A DNA stretch of 64,000 bases, from assembly GCA_036984305.1 (NCBI GenBank), contig BQWY01000001.1:2749501-2813500 (forward strand). Reading direction: 5' to 3'. Position 1 is the stretch's first letter; each line of letters opens with the position of its first letter. Positions 18,550 through 29,278 of this stretch are shown here, piece by piece. The translations under genes were made by a program, and so were the position numbers. The notes beneath the pieces were generated by a model. That model was not told the DNA's origin, did not search any database, and was given only the letters and a program-made list of their open reading frames with translations. The DNA comes from Nitrospira sp. (GTDB taxonomy: Bacteria; Nitrospirota; Nitrospiria; Nitrospirales; Nitrospiraceae).

Positions 18550-20727
18550 CTACCGCTCCTGCCACGTTCTGACCCGCCGCGCGGAAATAACCCCCTCGAT
18601 GCGCTCGACGGCTTGCAGCACGCGATGCAAATGTTCCGTGTCCGCCACCTCGATCACAAAATCGAGGACCGCCTTCCGGTCTTCTCGCGTGGTGATTTCG
18701 GCCCGACTGATGTTGGCGCTGCACCCGGCGATCGAGGACGAGACGTTGGCAAGCACACCCGGTCGGTCGACCGACATTACCGAAATCTTCGCGTCGTGAA
18801 TGCCGCTGTCGGAGCGATCCCATTCGACCTCAACGAGTCGGTCTCGATCATAGTCGAGAGCTTCGAGATTCGGACATCCGACGGCATGGATCGTGAGGCC
18901 ACGCCCCCGGGTGATATAGCCCAGAATGCGATCGCCGGGAACCGGGTTGCAGCACCGCGACAATTGCATCAGAAGATCGCGTGCCCCTCGAACCTTGACC
19001 CCCTTCTCATCCGACTTGGTCCCTGCAATCTTCCCTGGCCCAGCCTGCTCAGTCGCCGCCTTGGACGACTCCGTGGCCTGAGGGGCGAGCTTGGCCACCA
19101 CTTGCGCGCTGGCCATTTTCCCGTACCCCACCGCCGCGACCAGTTCGTCGATACTGTCGTATCCCGACCCATGGGCTAGCTCCAGCATCGCATCAGATTT
19201 CAATGTCTGCGCCGGAGGAAGATTGTGCTTACGGAATTCGACTTCGAGCAAACGACGGCCGATTTCGATGCTCCTTTTCTGTTCTTCAAGCTTGATCCAG
19301 TGCTTGATCTTGGTTTTCGCCCGAGAGGTGCGGACGAATTTCAGCCAATCCTTGTGCGGTGTTTGTGTCCCGGAAGTAAGAATCTCGACGGCATCGCCGC
19401 TCTGCAACGCATACTTGAGCGGGACGATTTTTCCATTCACTTTGGCGCCGACACAGTGATTGCCGATCTCGGTATGAATCGAAAAAGCAAAATCAACTGG
19501 AGTCGACCCCCGTGGCAACTCCTTCACCATCCCCTTGGGCGTAAACACGTAGACGACATCGTGAAAAAGGTCGAGCCGTACCGAGTCCATGAATTGGCGA
19601 TTGTCCGGAAGATCCTGATGCGATTCGACAAACTGGTGCAGCCAACTAAACACTTTTCCGTCTCGCTCATCGATCGCACCCTGCTCCTTATATTTCCAGT
19701 GTGCGGCGATCCCTTGTTCGGCGACGCGATGCATCTCTTCCGTACGGATTTGAAACTCGACATGCTCGGCCTTCGGTCCAAGCACGGTGGTATGTAGGGA
19801 TTGATACAGATTCGATTTGGGAATAGCGATATAGTCCTTAAACCGGCCGGGAACCGGACGCCAGAGCGAATGGATCAGCCCGAGGATGGCATAGCAGTTC
19901 ATTTTCGAATCAGTCAAAATGCGCAGTCCTGTCAGATCGTAGACTTCTTCGAATGAAATGCCCTGCTTTTGCATTTTCTGATAGATCCCGAACAAATGTT
20001 TGGGGCGTCCATGCACATCGCCGGGCAGTCCGACGTCGGCCAATTCTTTCCGGACAATGTCGGCCACCTCCTCAATGTATTGGCGGCGATCCTCTTCCCG
20101 CTTCGAGATCTTCTGGACGAGCATCTCGTAAATGTCTGTCTTCAGATATTTCAGGCAGAGGTCTTCCAACTCGTTCTTCATCCAGCCGATACCGAGCCGA
20201 TTCGCTAGCGGCGCGTAAATCTCCAGGGTCTCCTGGGCTACCTCTTGTTGCTTCTCCGAATGGTGATGTTGCAGCGTGCGCATGTTGTGCAGACGGTCGG
20301 CGAGCTTGACGAGGACGACGCGGATGTCGTCCGCCATCGACAACACCATCTTGCGAAAATTTTCGGCCTGCTTTTCTTCGTAGTTCTTGAATTGAATCTT
20401 CCCGATCTTGGTCACCCCGTCGACCAGACGCACGATTTCCTTCCCAAACTGACGCTCCAACTCTTGATGTGTCGCCAACGTGTCCTCAAGTGTGTCGTGC
20501 AGGAGACCGGCGACAATGGCGTTGACGTCACCTCTCAACAAGGTCAAGATGCTGGCCACCGCCAATGGGTGCTGCAGATAGGGTTCGCCAGACTTTCGAA
20601 CCTGGCCTTCGTGAGCCCGGGCCGAATATTCATAGGCGCGACGCACCAAGTCGACATCCGCCTCGGTTTGATAGCTTTGGAGCCGGGCGATCAGGCCGTC
20701 GATATCCGTCGCGGTACTATAGGGCAT
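18550..20727 (-). CDS. rel: Bifunctional (p)ppGpp synthetase/hydrolase (Rel/SpoT)
   Basis: A 725-residue protein from ATG 20727, whose start overlaps the 3' end of recJ. The HD hydrolase domain is intact (QHPLAVA with His53, LLHDTLEDT with His77-Asp78). It is followed by the synthetase domain (YQSLHTTVLGP), TGS (VYVFTPKGMVKELPRGSTPVDFAF), a helical/CC region with CCNPVPGD, and a C-terminal ACT domain. The intact HD suggests a bifunctional Rel that both makes and degrades (p)ppGpp in the stringent response. It is likely the only long RSH protein here, but that cannot be shown from one window. Confidence 0.93.
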   Translation of the reverse strand: MPYSTATDIDGLIARLQSYQTEADVDLVRRAYEYSARAHEGQVRKSGEPYLQHPLAVASILTLLRGDVNAIVAGLLHDTLEDTLATHQELERQFGKEIVRLVDGVTKIGKIQFKNYEEKQAENFRKMVLSMADDIRVVLVKLADRLHNMRTLQHHHSEKQQEVAQETLEIYAPLANRLGIGWMKNELEDLCLKYLKTDIYEMLVQKISKREEDRRQYIEEVADIVRKELADVGLPGDVHGRPKHLFGIYQKMQKQGISFEEVYDLTGLRILTDSKMNCYAILGLIHSLWRPVPGRFKDYIAIPKSNLYQSLHTTVLGPKAEHVEFQIRTEEMHRVAEQGIAAHWKYKEQGAIDERDGKVFSWLHQFVESHQDLPDNRQFMDSVRLDLFHDVVYVFTPKGMVKELPRGSTPVDFAFSIHTEIGNHCVGAKVNGKIVPLKYALQSGDAVEILTSGTQTPHKDWLKFVRTSRAKTKIKHWIKLEEQKRSIEIGRRLLEVEFRKHNLPPAQTLKSDAMLELAHGSGYDSIDELVAAVGYGKMASAQVVAKLAPQATESSKAATEQAGPGKIAGTKSDEKGVKVRGARDLLMQLSRCCNPVPGDRILGYITRGRGLTIHAVGCPNLEALDYDRDRLVEVEWDRSDSGIHDAKISVMSVDRPGVLANVSSSIAGCSANISRAEITTREDRKAVLDFVIEVADTEHLHRVLQAVERIEGVISARRVRTWQER

Positions 20728-22435
20728 CGTAAGCCTCAGGACGAACACTGGTGCGGACATCGCGAATGCGAAGCTGAATTTGCTCCATCCCGTTCCATCG
20801 GTTGATTTCCGGCACGAATGCAAGGTCTACGGGTCGGTCCCGTAAAACCCCCTGCTCCGTCAGAGCCCCCATCCGAAACCCGATGCTTGAGAAGGGAAAC
20901 GAATTGCCTTGCCGCACCGTCAGTTTGAGGTGCCCGACACCGACAACGCGGGCGTCCAACACTTTCAAGTTTCGCACGGCCAACGTCGGCTCAGGGTTAC
21001 CCGCCCCAAACGGATGGAGGCGGTCGAGTTCGCGGATCAATCCCAAGTCTACTTGTGATAATTGTACCTCAGCATCCACGTGAAGTGTGGGATCGGACCG
21101 GACGGCCTCATGTTTCGACGCCACCGCCTGAAAGCGGTCACGGAATGCTAAAAGCCGGTCCTCTCGTATTGTCAATCCCGCTGCGCCAGGATGGCCCCCA
21201 AACGCCTCAAGCAAATCGCGGCATTCTGCCAATGCGGCATAGGCGTCGAAACCAGGAATACTGCGGACCGACCCCTTGCCAATTCCTCGCTCGTCCACGG
21301 ACAACACGACCGCCGGTCGATGGTAGCGGTCCACCATACGCGCGGCGACGATCCCGACGACACCAAGGTGCCATCCACGCGACCACGCCACAACGGCCGA
21401 GTCGGTCCCGGAGGAAGGGAGACCCGCTTCCAACTCGCGCAGCACGGCGTCCTCGATCCGCTGTCGCGCACGGTTGAGCGCGTCGAGCCGCTCGGCTAAT
21501 GCCTGTGCCGGGCCATCCTGCTCGCTGGTCAGCAACTCCACCCCGAGCATGGCATGATCGAGACGCCCGGCCGCGTTCAACCTTGGCACGAGCTTGAACG
21601 AAAGCGTTCCCGTCGTGCAGGGACGGTCGATGCTCGCAACGCGCTTGAGCGCACGCAACCCCGGCCGATCGCCCGCCGTGATGCGCGCCAAGCCCTCCCG
21701 GACAAAGACGCGATTTTCGTCGATCAGCGGCACGACATCCGCCACCGTCGCCAATGCCACGAGGTCAAGCTGGCCGTCGAGCAGGGCCCGACTCCCACCG
21801 TATCGCATCTGATACGCTTCGGAAACCTTGTAGGCCAATGCAGCGGAACACAGTGCCGGGAACGGATAGACCGCGTCACGTCGGTGCGGATTCATCACGG
21901 CTCGCGCCGGTGGGATCGCCTCATCCGTTTGATGGTGGTCCGTCACCAGCACGTCCATGCCCAAGGATGCCGCAAGGGCGATCTCTCTGTGCGACGTGGT
22001 CCCGCAGTCGGATGTGACCAGGAGCGAGACCCCTTGCGCACGGAGATGAGTAATGGCCGCTGCATTGAGCCCATACCCCTCCTGCGTGCGATGAGGAATG
22101 TAGGCGAAGGCGCGGAGCCCAATCGATCGGAAGAATGTCAAGTAGAGACTGGTTGCCGACATCCCGTCGACATCGTAGTCTCCGTAGAAACAGACGAGTT
22201 CGTGAGTAGCGCAGGCACGACGAAGGCGCTCGATCCCGGTTTCGATATCGGGCAGCAAAAAGGGATCATGAAGGGAACCGGCCTCACGCTGGAGCCACTG
22301 ATTGGCCACGCGTGAACTGGACACTCCTCGAGCCAAGAGAATGGAGGCGGTGACGTGAGAAATCGACAGGGCGCGCACGAGACCCTGCCGATCGTCGATG
22401 CTGATATCAGGAAAAATCCATAGGCGCGGCCGCAT
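20717..22435 (-). CDS. recJ: Single-stranded-DNA exonuclease RecJ
   Basis: A 572-residue DHH-family exonuclease. Motif I is GDYDVDGMSA and motif III is VTDHHQTDE. The DHHA1 region shows GGHPGAAGLTI, followed by the OB-like C-terminus. RecJ degrades 5' single-strand ends during recombination and mismatch repair. The stop overlaps the start of rel by about 10 bases, so the two are translated from one transcript. Length is typical. Confidence 0.93.
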   Translation of the reverse strand: MRPRLWIFPDISIDDRQGLVRALSISHVTASILLARGVSSSRVANQWLQREAGSLHDPFLLPDIETGIERLRRACATHELVCFYGDYDVDGMSATSLYLTFFRSIGLRAFAYIPHRTQEGYGLNAAAITHLRAQGVSLLVTSDCGTTSHREIALAASLGMDVLVTDHHQTDEAIPPARAVMNPHRRDAVYPFPALCSAALAYKVSEAYQMRYGGSRALLDGQLDLVALATVADVVPLIDENRVFVREGLARITAGDRPGLRALKRVASIDRPCTTGTLSFKLVPRLNAAGRLDHAMLGVELLTSEQDGPAQALAERLDALNRARQRIEDAVLRELEAGLPSSGTDSAVVAWSRGWHLGVVGIVAARMVDRYHRPAVVLSVDERGIGKGSVRSIPGFDAYAALAECRDLLEAFGGHPGAAGLTIREDRLLAFRDRFQAVASKHEAVRSDPTLHVDAEVQLSQVDLGLIRELDRLHPFGAGNPEPTLAVRNLKVLDARVVGVGHLKLTVRQGNSFPFSSIGFRMGALTEQGVLRDRPVDLAFVPEINRWNGMEQIQLRIRDVRTSVRPEAYDAL

Positions 22436-22633
22436 CGTCCAGTCCGGATCGAGACCGTGGGCGACGGTCCTCGCGTGTTGCGCAATGCGAGGCGGAGTCT
22501 AGCGACCCCTTGGTGCATTGTCAAACCAGGCACGTGAGAGTACGGCTGGGGGGAACGGCCCCAGGGGCGAGCCATTTTTAGAACAGAGGACGAGTGGGTG
22601 AAAAGAGGGAAATAGGCTCAGCACGGGAGGCGA

Positions 22634-22831
22634 TTACTCGCCCCCCTTTTGGACGTAGTTCTTAACGAATTCTTCAGCATTCTTTTCGAGGACGTCATCG
22701 ATCTCGTCGACGAGCTTGTCAATGTCTTCCTTCAGTTTCTTACCAGTTTCCACCACCTTGGGATTGGCTTTGACATCTTCCTTCCCCTGTGGTTCCTTTT
22801 TGGATTCCGGCCTCCGTTCCTGTTTTTCCAT
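22634..22831 (-). CDS. ubact: UBact / Pup-like ubiquitin-like protein ending in GGE
   Basis: A 65-residue, highly charged protein starting at ATG 22831 with a strong GGAGGTG site six bases upstream. The first 30 residues are disordered and rich in Lys/Glu/Pro. Residues 31-60 form an amphipathic helix (KKLKEDIDKLVDEIDDVLEK). The tail is YVQKGGE, with a terminal Glu65 after Gly-Gly. This is the pattern of UBact, the Pup relative reported in Nitrospirae and other Gram-negative phyla, which is conjugated through its C-terminal Glu to lysines for proteasomal turnover. A GGE end needs no deamidation. No pafA, dop, ARC/Mpa or proteasome gene is in the window, which is unusual. Confidence 0.85.
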   Translation of the reverse strand: MEKQERRPESKKEPQGKEDVKANPKVVETGKKLKEDIDKLVDEIDDVLEKNAEEFVKNYVQKGGE

Positions 22832-22943
22832 AGAGACACCTCCGTGTGACGCGCGGCGTCGGCCAGTCCCGAGCCACGGGGGGGAATCATCTATGGCCAG
22901 CTTACTCCCGCATTTCTGGGAACGTCAAGCCGGAGTTCCAAAC

Positions 22944-24995
22944 TCACACGATCAACGACACGATCAACAACGCAACAATGTTGATAACTTTAATCATCGG
23001 ATTGATCGCAGGACCGGCTGTATCTTTGTACGGATCACCGACAGTATCACCGGTCACCGCGGCCTTGTGCGTGTCACTCCCCTTCAGGCCCTGCTCTTCA
23101 ATGAACTTTTTCGCGTTGTCCCATGCACCTCCACCACTCGTCATGGAAATCGCCACGAAGAGTCCCGTCACAATGCTCCCCACGAGGACGCCACCCAGCG
23201 CTTGGGGCCCTAAAATCACGCCGACCAGGACCGGGGACAATACGGGAATCAGTCCTGGTATCATCATCTTCTGAATGGCCGCTTGCGTCACAATGTCCAC
23301 ACAAGTTCCATATTCCGGCTTGCCGGTTCCTTCCATGATGCCCTTAATCGTCCTGAATTGCCGGCGAACTTCTTCGACTACCAGCCCGGCCGCTTGTCCG
23401 ACCGCTTTCATGCAGAGTGCTCCAAAAATGAAGGGGAGCATTCCGCCGAGAAACAGACCGACCAGCACCTTTGGATCCGAGAGATCGAACGCAGCGGTCG
23501 AGCTATGCGCGGCCACCTCGCGAGAAAACTCCGCAAAGAGGACCACTGCCGCAAGCCCGGCGGAGCCGATCGCATATCCCTTTGTCACCGCTTTGGTCGT
23601 ATTGCCGACCGCATCGAGAGGATCAGTAATATCGCGCACGGCCGGACCGAGGTGGGACATTTCAGCGATCCCGCCGGCATTGTCGGTAATCGGACCGAAG
23701 GCGTCGATCGCCACGACGATCCCAGCCATCGACAGCATGGACACAGCCGCAATGGCGACACCATAGAGTCCCCCGGACTCCGCGCCACCGCACACCCAAA
23801 AGCTGGTCAGGATCGCGCCCCCGATGACGACGACTGGCCAGGCGGTGGACTGCATCCCCACGGCGAGACCAGCAATGATGTTCGTGGCGTGTCCGGTTTC
23901 GCTGGCCTTCGCAATGGCCTTTACGGGCTCATAGCTTTTCGACGTGTAGTAATCGGTGATGAACACCATGGCGAGTGTCACAACCAATCCCAGCAGAGCC
24001 GCAATATAATAGCTGAGGCCGCTGACTCCACCGACCCCATCCATGATCGAATTTGTAAGCGGGAAAAATGCCACGGCCGCCAGGCCGCCGGCGACGAACA
24101 AGCCCTTGTACAAGGCAGGCATGATCTCGCCGCCCGGGCTGACCTTAACGAAAAGAATGCCGATAATCGTCGCGAAGATGGTCACGGCACCCAAGGCCAG
24201 AGGATATAGAATCGGCGCCGTGGCCCCCTTGAACAGAGTAAATGCCAACACCATTGCGGCCACAGTGGTGACGGCATAGGTTTCGAACAGGTCGGCCGCC
24301 ATTCCGGCGCAGTCTCCGACATTGTCGCCAACATTGTCGGCAATGACGGCAGGATTTCGCGGATCGTCTTCCGGTATGCCTGCTTCGACCTTCCCTACCA
24401 GATCGGCCCCGACATCGGCAGCCTTAGTGTAGATACCGCCGCCGACACGGGCGAACACTGAGATCAAACTGCCCCCGAATCCGAGGCTCAGGAGGGCATG
24501 GATCGCCTTTTCCTGGCCGGCAATACCCTGCGCCAAGGTGTAAAATGCTGTAATCGCCAAGAGACCAAGTCCAATCAACAGCAACCCGGTCACCGCCCCG
24601 CCACGAAAGGCCACCGTGAGAGCCGCATTCATGCCGTCATGCGCCGCCTGGGCCGTTCTCACGTTCGCCCGCACGGCAATGATCATCCCGACATAACCTG
24701 CGATCGCCGACGCGCCAGCGCCGACCAAAAACCCGATCGCCGTGAGCAGCCCAAATTTGTCGGACACGGCGCCTGCACTCCACAGAACCACGAATAGGGC
24801 AACCGCCACGATCGCCACGGTCCGGTATTGCCGATTCATGTAGGCCCCGGCTCCCTCCTGAATGGCCTTGGCGATATCCTGCATTTTTTGATTGCCGGAG
24901 TTCAGTTTGAACACCCACATGGCCAAGTAGAGGCCGTAGGCAATCCCGGCCGCCGCCGCGATCAAGGCAAAGATGACGATTGCTGAGTCGCTCAC
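22944..24995 (-). CDS. hppA: K+-insensitive H+-translocating membrane pyrophosphatase
   Basis: A 683-residue integral membrane protein with about 16 hydrophobic segments. It starts with GTG at 24995, preceded by GGAGGAG. The pyrophosphate-binding loop [29 protein letters not shown] (residues about 191-219) is fully conserved, as is the later [15 protein letters not shown]. The residue that separates K+-dependent from K+-independent types is Lys468 ([10 protein letters not shown]), which indicates the K+-insensitive, proton-pumping class. It couples hydrolysis of PPi to proton export and so adds to the proton motive force. Confidence 0.95.
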
Positions 24996-26168: not shown

Positions 26169-27410
26169 CTATTTGGGAATAGGAATGTTTTCGCTGAATT
26201 TTGCGATCGGGATCGGCTGAAATACAGGATCCTGTGCTCCCTTGGGCGACTCGGCCTCGATCCGCTGGAGAAAATTCGGTGGGCCGCTCACCGGTGCATA
26301 GTTAAGCGTCACGATGACGTCGAACGTCTTCGTATCCTTGGGTGTCGGGAAGGTGAATGTTTCAACGCGAGTTTCCTCCGGTTTGAGCACGGTGTCATCC
26401 GTAACTTTGACCGCTTTGAAGTCGAAGACCGTTTCTTGCCCCTTCCCATCCTGATACCGCCGGCCGTACAACCGCTTTTCATTGAACACTGTTCTGAGAT
26501 TCTTCCCCTGAATACTCAGGTCCAACACGACGCTCGCCCAGCCTGGGTGTGTGGTAGGAAGGTTGTGCGGAACCAAGCTCTTCACGTCAACCGTCACGGT
26601 GGTCTTGTCCCCCTGCACCGTAGTCGTCACCGCCAATATCGCCGCTTCCTGCCGGAGCTTACCAATCCGGCCTGGAAACGAGTGATTGGCGACCTTCCGC
26701 TTGTTTTCCCCGTTAGCCGATTCACCCGTTTGCTCGGGCATGTGGCACGTCTGGCACTCCTTCCCCGCTTTGATAGCCTTGCTTGTCTCCCATGATCCCA
26801 GTAGGTCATTGCTCTGTCCGAGATTCGCGGCAGCCGGAACTGTCAGGTGACAGTTGAGACAGAGGGCCGACTTTCTGAACAACTCCAACTCTACGGATTG
26901 GTGCGCGAGGTTCGCGGCCGCATCCTTGTAAGGGCCATACAGAGTCTTGTTGCCAATATCGTACTTGGGAACCGGGGGGTGACCACTACGATCCACCTCT
27001 CTGATCAAGTGGCACTGCGAACAAGCCACCCCATCAATGGAGGGTTCGGCCGACTGCACTTGCTTAACGAAATAGTCGGTTTGCTCGGTGAATTCGTTGA
27101 TATGCGGTGCATGGCACCGAAGGCACAGGGCCTTATCTTTGCCGGCCGAGAACGTGAGATATTCATCCAATGCGGCACGGAACGCAGGTGAATGAATGGA
27201 TCGCGAGAGTGGAGACGTTTCCCATTCCTCGAACACTCGTTCGTGACAACGCTTGCACTTGGCAGCCGCCGGAAATGCCTTGTCGAGTGTGAGCTTGGTC
27301 TTGCTTGTCTCGTCTGCCCGCCCGGACCCGATGACCAAGCCCAGTAGGCAGCATGCGGCGATGGCCGCGCTCATCATAACTCTGCCAACCACTTTTGACG
27401 ACAATTTCAC
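26169..27410 (-). CDS. Periplasmic pentaheme cytochrome c (c554-like)
   Basis: GTG at 27410 is chosen because GGGAGGTG lies just ahead of it; the product has 413 residues. A signal peptide covers about residues 1-32. Five CxxCH sites are at 52-56, 96-100, 130-134, 184-188 and 219-223. After them comes a beta-rich C-terminal domain (about 240-400) without hemes. The heme region resembles the cytochrome c554 group, but with five hemes. It is a tandem paralogue of the next gene upstream (shared motifs SQCHLI..VD.SG.PP and KTLYGPY). A role as periplasmic electron carrier or storage is inferred. Confidence 0.85.
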   Translation of the reverse strand: MKLSSKVVGRVMMSAAIAACCLLGLVIGSGRADETSKTKLTLDKAFPAAAKCKRCHERVFEEWETSPLSRSIHSPAFRAALDEYLTFSAGKDKALCLRCHAPHINEFTEQTDYFVKQVQSAEPSIDGVACSQCHLIREVDRSGHPPVPKYDIGNKTLYGPYKDAAANLAHQSVELELFRKSALCLNCHLTVPAAANLGQSNDLLGSWETSKAIKAGKECQTCHMPEQTGESANGENKRKVANHSFPGRIGKLRQEAAILAVTTTVQGDKTTVTVDVKSLVPHNLPTTHPGWASVVLDLSIQGKNLRTVFNEKRLYGRRYQDGKGQETVFDFKAVKVTDDTVLKPEETRVETFTFPTPKDTKTFDVIVTLNYAPVSGPPNFLQRIEAESPKGAQDPVFQPIPIAKFSENIPIPK

Positions 27411-27458
27411 AAACACCTCCCTAGAGCGCTCATGGATCCAGCCCTGCGCCGACGTCAC

Positions 27459-28775
27459 CTACAGGGTCTTCACCCGATAGGTCAGCACCCGCTGCTGGGC
27501 ATAGTCCTTGAGAATCGCCGCGGCTTCCTGGCGTGCTCGATCGCTGGAAAGCGTGGCCAGATACTGGTCGCGCAACGACGGCGGGGGGTCTGGAATCAAC
27601 TGATACTTGAGGATCGCCTCCACACGGGCTGATTCTCCCGACTGAATCGCAACCTTGAAGGGCACCTTGCGCGTGGTCCCTCCCTTGATAAACGGATCCG
27701 GAATGGGACCACGAAGCACGTTCTCGAACGATTCGCCGTATCGATGCTCCTCCCTGGCCAGCACGTGCCCCTCGGCATTCTTAACCAGAATCTCAACAGT
27801 AAACTGTTTGAGGACGGGGTCACCGTCGGGAAAACTGTGAGGAAGACTCCCCACTCGCACGAGCGCCGTTCCCTCGACGGACCCTGCCGATTTGACGGCT
27901 TCGATGTCGATGCGCGGCATCCATTCTGCCTGGAGGTTACGATTCTTGAGGAGCGTCCCAGGAATGACAACTCCCCGAAACCAATGCCGGCCGATGGACC
28001 GGGTGAGCGACCCTCGCTTGGATGTGGAACTTCCGGTCGACGGCTCCATATGGCAATCCTGACACACCGTCCCTTGCAGAATTTCGCCTGGCAAATCCGG
28101 CCTCGCAACGTCCTTCACTTTGTCGAAATGGCACGACGCACAATAATTGGCCCCCCGGTACAGGTCGGATTGCATGGCAGGATGCACGAGGTTTTCTTCT
28201 GGGTCGCTATAAGGCCCATAGAGCGTCTTACCCGGCTTGAGTTTGAAGGTAGGCGGCGGGCCCCCACTCTGATCAACCGACTGGATGAGATGGCACGAGG
28301 TACACCCGATTCCCTCGACGTCCACTCTCCCAGCCATCACCTGATTCATGATCTTGTCCGTGTGCTGCGGGTAGACAGTCGTCACCGGTGCATGACAGGA
28401 CAGACATCGGGCTTTCTCCTCCGCGGTCGGTTTGGTCTGCAGCCAGACCCCAAGAACGGTCTTGAATACGGGCGACTCGAGCGACGTTCCGTGTAGAAGT
28501 GCAGCATCAACACGACCGAATGTTTTGAGATCCGGCGTCTGCTCGCGAATACCCTTCCACTCCTCATAATGACGATCATGGCATTGCTTGCAATCTTCCG
28601 ATCGAATGAAGACTTTTTCGATCTCAGCCACCCAGTCCCGATTCGAATCAGCAGACTGACCATCCACCTTCTGTGCAACTGCCGGCTCTTGGAGTATCAC
28701 GGTGGTCACCACTCCAAGGCACAGCACGAACCCGCCCGCAAGTACCGCCCACCAGGTTCTACCTCTCGTCGCCAC
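27459..28775 (-). CDS. Periplasmic pentaheme cytochrome c, paralogue of the downstream gene
   Basis: Start taken as GTG 28775, 14 bases after the PDZ gene's stop, with GCGGAGA before it. The frame stays open to 28913, but that extension would overlap the PDZ gene. The product is 438 residues with a hydrophobic leader at 8-34. CxxCH sites are at 62-66, 124-128, 158-162, 212-216 and 238-242. As in its partner, the hemes are followed by a C-terminal beta-rich part with no hemes. The two genes share heme spacing and the KTLYGPY and SCHLI motifs, so they arose by duplication. It may be membrane-tethered. Confidence 0.83.
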   Translation of the reverse strand: MATRGRTWWAVLAGGFVLCLGVVTTVILQEPAVAQKVDGQSADSNRDWVAEIEKVFIRSEDCKQCHDRHYEEWKGIREQTPDLKTFGRVDAALLHGTSLESPVFKTVLGVWLQTKPTAEEKARCLSCHAPVTTVYPQHTDKIMNQVMAGRVDVEGIGCTSCHLIQSVDQSGGPPPTFKLKPGKTLYGPYSDPEENLVHPAMQSDLYRGANYCASCHFDKVKDVARPDLPGEILQGTVCQDCHMEPSTGSSTSKRGSLTRSIGRHWFRGVVIPGTLLKNRNLQAEWMPRIDIEAVKSAGSVEGTALVRVGSLPHSFPDGDPVLKQFTVEILVKNAEGHVLAREEHRYGESFENVLRGPIPDPFIKGGTTRKVPFKVAIQSGESARVEAILKYQLIPDPPPSLRDQYLATLSSDRARQEAAAILKDYAQQRVLTYRVKTL

Positions 28776-28789
28776 GGCCGTCTCCGCGC

Positions 28790-29278
28790 TCAGTCTTTCA
28801 AAATTCTGACAAAATGAAAGTTGACGCCCCATCCGACCGGATCGCCAGGATCCGCCGGCTCGTACGTGCCGACGGTGAAATTCTCCGTCTGCATAGCGCG
28901 CTTGAGTGCACATCCGAAGTCACGCAAGGTTCTTACGTCGATCTTGTCGATCTCCTTGACCACTGCCCCAACCTTGATTCCGGCCAGTTCCGCTGGTGTT
29001 CCGCCAATCACTTCGAACACGACCACACCAACAGCTCTCTGGAGCCCCAACTCTTTTCGAATGTCTTCGTCTACCGCGCCGACAGCAATACCAAACTCCT
29101 CGCCTAGCTTGATGGCGTCCTCATCGCTGATCTCACAGTTCTTGATCGAAGCCTGCGCCATCGCGGAGGGAGGGGCCGGCATCCCGGTCATGACTAACAG
29201 GAGACCGGCTATAAAAAAAGCCCAACCTGGCGGCAGGGCTTCGTGTGACAGACGCGCAGACACTGGACCGTTCACCAT
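28790..29278 (-). CDS. Exported PDZ-domain protein
   Basis: A 162-residue protein with a long leader (hydrophobic stretch about residues 19-32, cleavage near AMAQA). The mature part ends in a PDZ fold: GVVVFEVIGGTPAELAGIKVGAVVKEIDKIDVRTLRDF. PDZ domains bind C-terminal peptides or act as scaffolds in proteases; no protease domain is attached here. It lies upstream of and close to the two pentaheme cytochromes, so a role as scaffold or maturation factor for them is possible but inferred. Confidence 0.75.
   Translation of the reverse strand: MVNGPVSARLSHEALPPGWAFFIAGLLLVMTGMPAPPSAMAQASIKNCEISDEDAIKLGEEFGIAVGAVDEDIRKELGLQRAVGVVVFEVIGGTPAELAGIKVGAVVKEIDKIDVRTLRDFGCALKRAMQTENFTVGTYEPADPGDPVGWGVNFHFVRILKD

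Follow-up and report, generated by a model that had tools for sequence, protein, structure and literature searches.

A solitary pup gene between hppA and recJ in Nitrospira, distant from its Pup-proteasome cluster and accompanied by a separate UBact system

THE LOCUS

The stretch of DNA analysed here, referred to below as the window, spans 64 kb of a 4.35-Mb Nitrospira genome (contig C1, positions 2749501-2813500). It contains a 198-base open reading frame on the minus strand, which starts at 22831 and stops at 22634, and encodes a protein of 65 amino acids, MEKQERRPESKKEPQGKEDVKANPKVVETGKKLKEDIDKLVDEIDDVLEKNAEEFVKNYVQKGGE, with the C-terminus QKGGE. The original prediction had the coordinates right; the strand is minus, and the opposite (plus) strand of the same interval encodes only an unrelated hydrophobic frame. 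The gene lies between hppA and recJ, as had been predicted; both are on the same strand, and Pfam confirms both: upstream hppA (22944-24995; membrane pyrophosphatase, PF03030, 884 bits), and downstream recJ (20717-22435; RecJ_OB, DHH and DHHA1). The gene after recJ is a relA/spoT homologue (18550-20823, minus strand; HD_4, RelA_SpoT, TGS and ACT). Upstream of hppA are two adjoining genes for multihaem cytochromes c (26169-28913), an arrangement conserved in several Nitrospira loci.

FAMILY IDENTITY

The small gene is pup, for prokaryotic ubiquitin-like protein, a bacterial tag that earmarks other proteins for degradation. Its product matches the Pup family of Pfam (PF05639) with 76.2 bits (E 3.7e-21; cut-off 27) and the NCBIfam model TIGR03687 (pupylate_cterm) with 61.6 bits (cut-off 41.45), and the closest solved structures are mycobacterial Pup chains (Mycobacterium tuberculosis Pup in the PDB, E 4e-11). 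Over the last 32 codons, it differs from 19 Nitrospira homologues by 12-22 synonymous and 0-4 nonsynonymous changes. Together with the Pup score, this bias upholds the frame as a genuine gene.

The original prediction had ascribed to the product the ‘full UBact design’. In favour of that reading, the window protein is similar in size to UBact, has a disordered, charged N-terminus and a tail that ends in E, and a genuine UBact does occur in this genome. That protein is encoded elsewhere, however, and ends in RYRQRTGQ (PF20513, 79.7 bits), whereas the window gene has no match to UBact (PF20513 or NF033388) at E values up to 1 in Pfam and NCBIfam, both of which return Pup. The original prediction had itself named the lack of a UBact match as refuting. 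UBact identity is unsupported, therefore, and we see practically no chance that the gene belongs to UBact, whether as the modifier itself or as a paralogue; these models refute it. Judged by sequence, the gene is Pup, not UBact.

Members of the Pup family are expected to end in GGE or GGQ, as the window protein does (KGGE), and to have cognate PafA, Dop and Mpa proteins encoded in the genome; these too are present (TIGR03686, TIGR03688 and TIGR03689, all above cut-off, at C1:2723-2730 kb). They are not adjacent: the cluster that contains the PafA-family gene is 42.5 kb away. Adjacency is a reported feature of gene order, and not a criterion for membership of the protein family. The GGE tail had been predicted to be conserved, and it is, as KGGE, in every Nitrospiraceae locus checked except one divergent locus (L040), where it is GGQ. 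GGQ also ends a Nitrospirales-type pup, followed by relA, on a contig labelled Nitrospinota (L041), which possibly belongs to a misassigned bin. One further gene, between hppA and recJ (G240:C1:2460094-2460300; L125), has an unusually weak Pup score of 43 bits, and may be diverging.

THE PUP-PROTEASOME CLUSTER

No ligase or proteasome gene was found within the 64-kb window, as originally noted, but the genome as a whole is well provided: it has four matches to Pup_ligase and five to Proteasome, and two full sets of partners. The first, cluster A (C1:2723343-2729635, minus strand; L012), comprises mpa, dop, prcB, prcA and pafA, with thiE upstream of mpa. Between pup and the near end of this cluster are 42.5 kb, of which 19.9 kb lie outside the window, and the partners appeared to be absent because the complete set starts some 20 kb past the window's edge. 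PafA, Dop, Mpa/ARC, PrcA and PrcB of cluster A each score above the NCBIfam equivalog cut-off. Alignments with solved PafA, Dop, PrcB and Mpa span most of their length, and both the stretch with Asp ahead of HPEY and the GTT at which the proteasome subunit starts are retained. The Mpa protein has the C-terminus GHYL. About 25 bases separate the stop of dop from the start of prcB, and the slot that pup usually occupies is thus closed; searches with tblastn found no pup remnant in this gap, or elsewhere in the two loci L012 and L013. The window gene is the sole Pup in the genome. The fifth Proteasome match, at C1:183 kb, reads from its sequence as HslV, beside HslU.

A SECOND TAG IN THE SAME GENOME

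Cluster B (C1:934053-941098; L014), 1.8 Mb from pup, encodes an ATPase, a Dop-like ligase homologue, UBact, PrcB, PrcA and a PafA-like ligase homologue. Its UBact (C1:937 kb) has 63 amino acids, and also matches NF033388 (80.4 bits). The genome-wide search proposed in the original prediction thus located pafA, dop, mpa, prcA and prcB in cluster A, and UBact in cluster B. The second modifier that had been suspected does exist, but is not a paralogue of pup; it is a genuine UBact in a cluster of its own. In a midpoint-rooted tree of 44 PafA and Dop homologues, enzymes of Pup systems and of UBact systems split with support of 97/94, and those of cluster A fall among other Nitrospirota Pup-system enzymes. 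We infer that cluster A, and not the UBact cluster, pairs with Pup.

The combination is widespread. Among 127 Nitrospiraceae genomes, Pup occurs in 121 and UBact in 103; 98 have both, 23 have Pup alone, five have UBact alone, and one has neither. The six that lack Pup (five of them with UBact) may represent assembly gaps or losses. A mixed assembly could in principle bring two tag systems together, and the estimated contamination of the present genome is 2.3%, but every locus lies on one 4.2-Mb contig and both modifiers recur in 98 of the 127 genomes. The single contig and the family-wide pattern rule contamination out, and we put its likelihood close to nil. Two near-identical pup loci (L015 and L021) occur in one bin (MAG LS_FP_2_bin.31), probably from mixed strains.

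The number of ligase homologues rises and falls with the number of modifiers. By hand tally, 91 of the 98 genomes with both modifiers have four or five; the 23 genomes with Pup alone have two (15 genomes), three (seven) or five (one). Each modifier thus tracks its own ligase pair. This bears on whether Pup might act as a tag independent of the proteasome, or one common to both ligase systems: unlinking ends co-transcription with the proteasome genes, and the genome has two ligase pairs on which a shared tag could draw. The covariation of ligases and modifiers argues against such a role, as does the Pup-type proteasome cluster, which is intact and scores above the equivalog cut-offs, and we consider it quite improbable.

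RELOCATION OF PUP

The separation of pup from its partner cluster is a stable feature of these bacteria. The arrangement hppA-pup-recJ-relA is conserved in Nitrospiraceae; 27 named Nitrospira-type loci have hppA, recJ or both next to pup; and the order pup-recJ is kept across the family and in most other members of the order examined. The synteny comparison that had been suggested thus finds pup at a conserved site in Nitrospira, apart from the partner cluster. In all 41 Nitrospiraceae genomes with pup and dop on one contig, 40.7-864 kb separate the two (median 49.6 kb). Elsewhere in the order, pup is unlinked in each of six cases examined (by 84 kb, 114 kb or 1.4 Mb, or on different contigs), and sits beside recJ or hppA in five; in the sixth (G250), it is followed by relA. 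Class- and phylum-level outgroups that have Pup differ: all of them keep pup next to a ligase gene or within the ligase cluster, and closer inspection of five (L127-L130 and L047) gave the order mpa-dop-pup-prcB-prcA-pafA.

A single move of pup at the base of the order is the simplest account of this distribution, and the relocation is old. The earlier proposal of an unlinked, relocated single copy thus holds, for Pup: it is the only one in the genome, it is unlinked across the order, and the dop-prcB slot is closed. The same arrangement would arise if the resident gene had not moved at all, but an extra Pup had been acquired from elsewhere and the cluster's original pup lost later. A protein as short as Pup does not yield a reliable tree, and identities to other members of the order and to outgroups overlap, at ~61-84% over the matched parts, and are compatible with either origin of the order's Pup. 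Outside the order, however, the nearest Pups come mostly from Nitrospirota and neighbouring groups, and a single basal event accounts for the distribution; we think acquisition unlikely.

A different kind of solitary gene occurs in an NC10 genome (G269), where a clear pup (L046, 10001-10186) has no partner within 10 kb and the genome has no Pup_ligase match. The same MAG contains a second short pup-like match (L068). The L046 gene is either an orphan Pup or a product of incomplete assembly.

EXPRESSION SIGNALS

The gene has its own ribosome-binding site, as had been predicted: the sequence GGAGGTG (22837-22843, minus strand), read from the DNA, with sites of the GGAGG type before pup in nearly all Nitrospiraceae loci. 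Further upstream is a promoter-like element (22899-22928, minus strand) made up of TTGACG (22928-22923), an 18-base spacer and TAAGCT (22904-22899). The pattern CTTGAC[GT]-N14-15-[AG][AG]GTA[AT] occurs 40-76 bases before the start of pup in 29 of 32 loci, which are related, so that this is not an independent count. A relaxed form of the pattern has one match in the window, the pup element itself, with 0.55 expected. Read as TTGACG, 17-18 bases and TAWNNT, the motif resembles a sigma-70 promoter, and may act as one. It was not found in other members of the order, which limits the regulatory claim to Nitrospiraceae.

A second promoter-like element (TTGACA-17-TAGACT, 10 of 12 consensus positions) lies between pup and recJ (22496-22524, minus strand), with similar sites before recJ in 18 of 20 loci. 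This suggests that recJ is independent of the pup promoter. No terminator-like sites were found around pup. From the conservation of these promoter-like elements, pup is probably transcribed as a separate unit in Nitrospiraceae, in keeping with the separate regulation proposed originally.

PROPOSED FUNCTION AND RELATION TO KNOWN SYSTEMS

We propose, with a probability of about 88%, that this sole, relocated pup serves the intact but distant Pup-proteasome cluster, probably from its own promoter, with a separate UBact system alongside. The protein and its mechanism look, from sequence, like those of ordinary Pup. By analogy with actinobacterial Pup, PafA would link the C-terminal glutamate, through its side chain, to lysines of substrates; Mpa would bind the helical part of Pup and feed the disordered N-terminal end to the PrcAB proteasome; and Dop would take the tag off. 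Deamidation would not be needed, since the tail is encoded as GGE. On this reading, pup gave up its place between dop and prcB in the order's ancestor and took up one upstream of recJ-relA, which in Nitrospiraceae is between hppA and recJ. Probable possession of its own promoter would uncouple expression of the tag from that of its enzymes, and the separate UBact system is equipped with a ligase pair, an ATPase and a proteasome of its own. More tentatively, it is possible, if rather doubtful, that in Nitrospirales the tag, and not the enzymes, is separately controlled, with tagging set independently from a promoter beside recJ and the stringent-response gene relA, and in parallel with the UBact-proteasome pathway.

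The system shares with that of Actinomycetota the modifier family, the GGE/GGQ tail and the full set of mpa, dop, prcB, prcA and pafA. It differs in that pup is with hppA, recJ and relA, 42.5 kb away, instead of beside dop and prcB, and, from mycobacteria, in that the encoded tail is GGE and not GGQ. Other Nitrospirota (L127-L130 and L047) have an orthologous cluster, in several of which thiE also adjoins mpa, but their pup is between dop and prcB. Pupylation in Nitrospirota was already known (PMC7947786). pup has been said always to adjoin a PafA-family gene (PMC2588565), and Barandun et al. 2012 (PMC3511204) described a rigid gene order shared by all pupylation-competent organisms; both statements fail for the order of the Nitrospira nitrifiers.

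UBact (PF20513, NF033388), described by Lehmann et al. 2017 (doi 10.1016/j.bbrc.2017.01.037, as cited in PMC12751074), is a comparable tag, encoded in the same genome together with a ligase pair and a proteasome of its own; its cluster is compact and its tail RTGQ, and the window gene lacks a match to it. A Nitrospirota genome with two proteasome-tag systems is on record, that of Leptospirillum ferrooxidans, whose systems are L1 and L2, the second without a terminal GGE (Barandun et al. 2012, PMC3511204). The two are said to have the same genetic context, so that the Pup of L. ferrooxidans is in its cluster, unlike here. Our literature search, which did not extend to the original UBact paper, turned up no account of an unlinked pup, or of Pup together with UBact, in Nitrospira, and novelty is not claimed for the dual system. 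Of interest are the conserved distance between pup and its machinery, and the presence of a UBact system in parallel. Most Nitrospiraceae genomes encode two protein tags and two proteasomes, and those with both are a natural system in which to ask how a bacterium separates two ubiquitin-like pathways. One genome with a normal UBact (G051) also has a second UBact-like match (C1:1039919-1040017), which at 26.1 bits is below cut-off.
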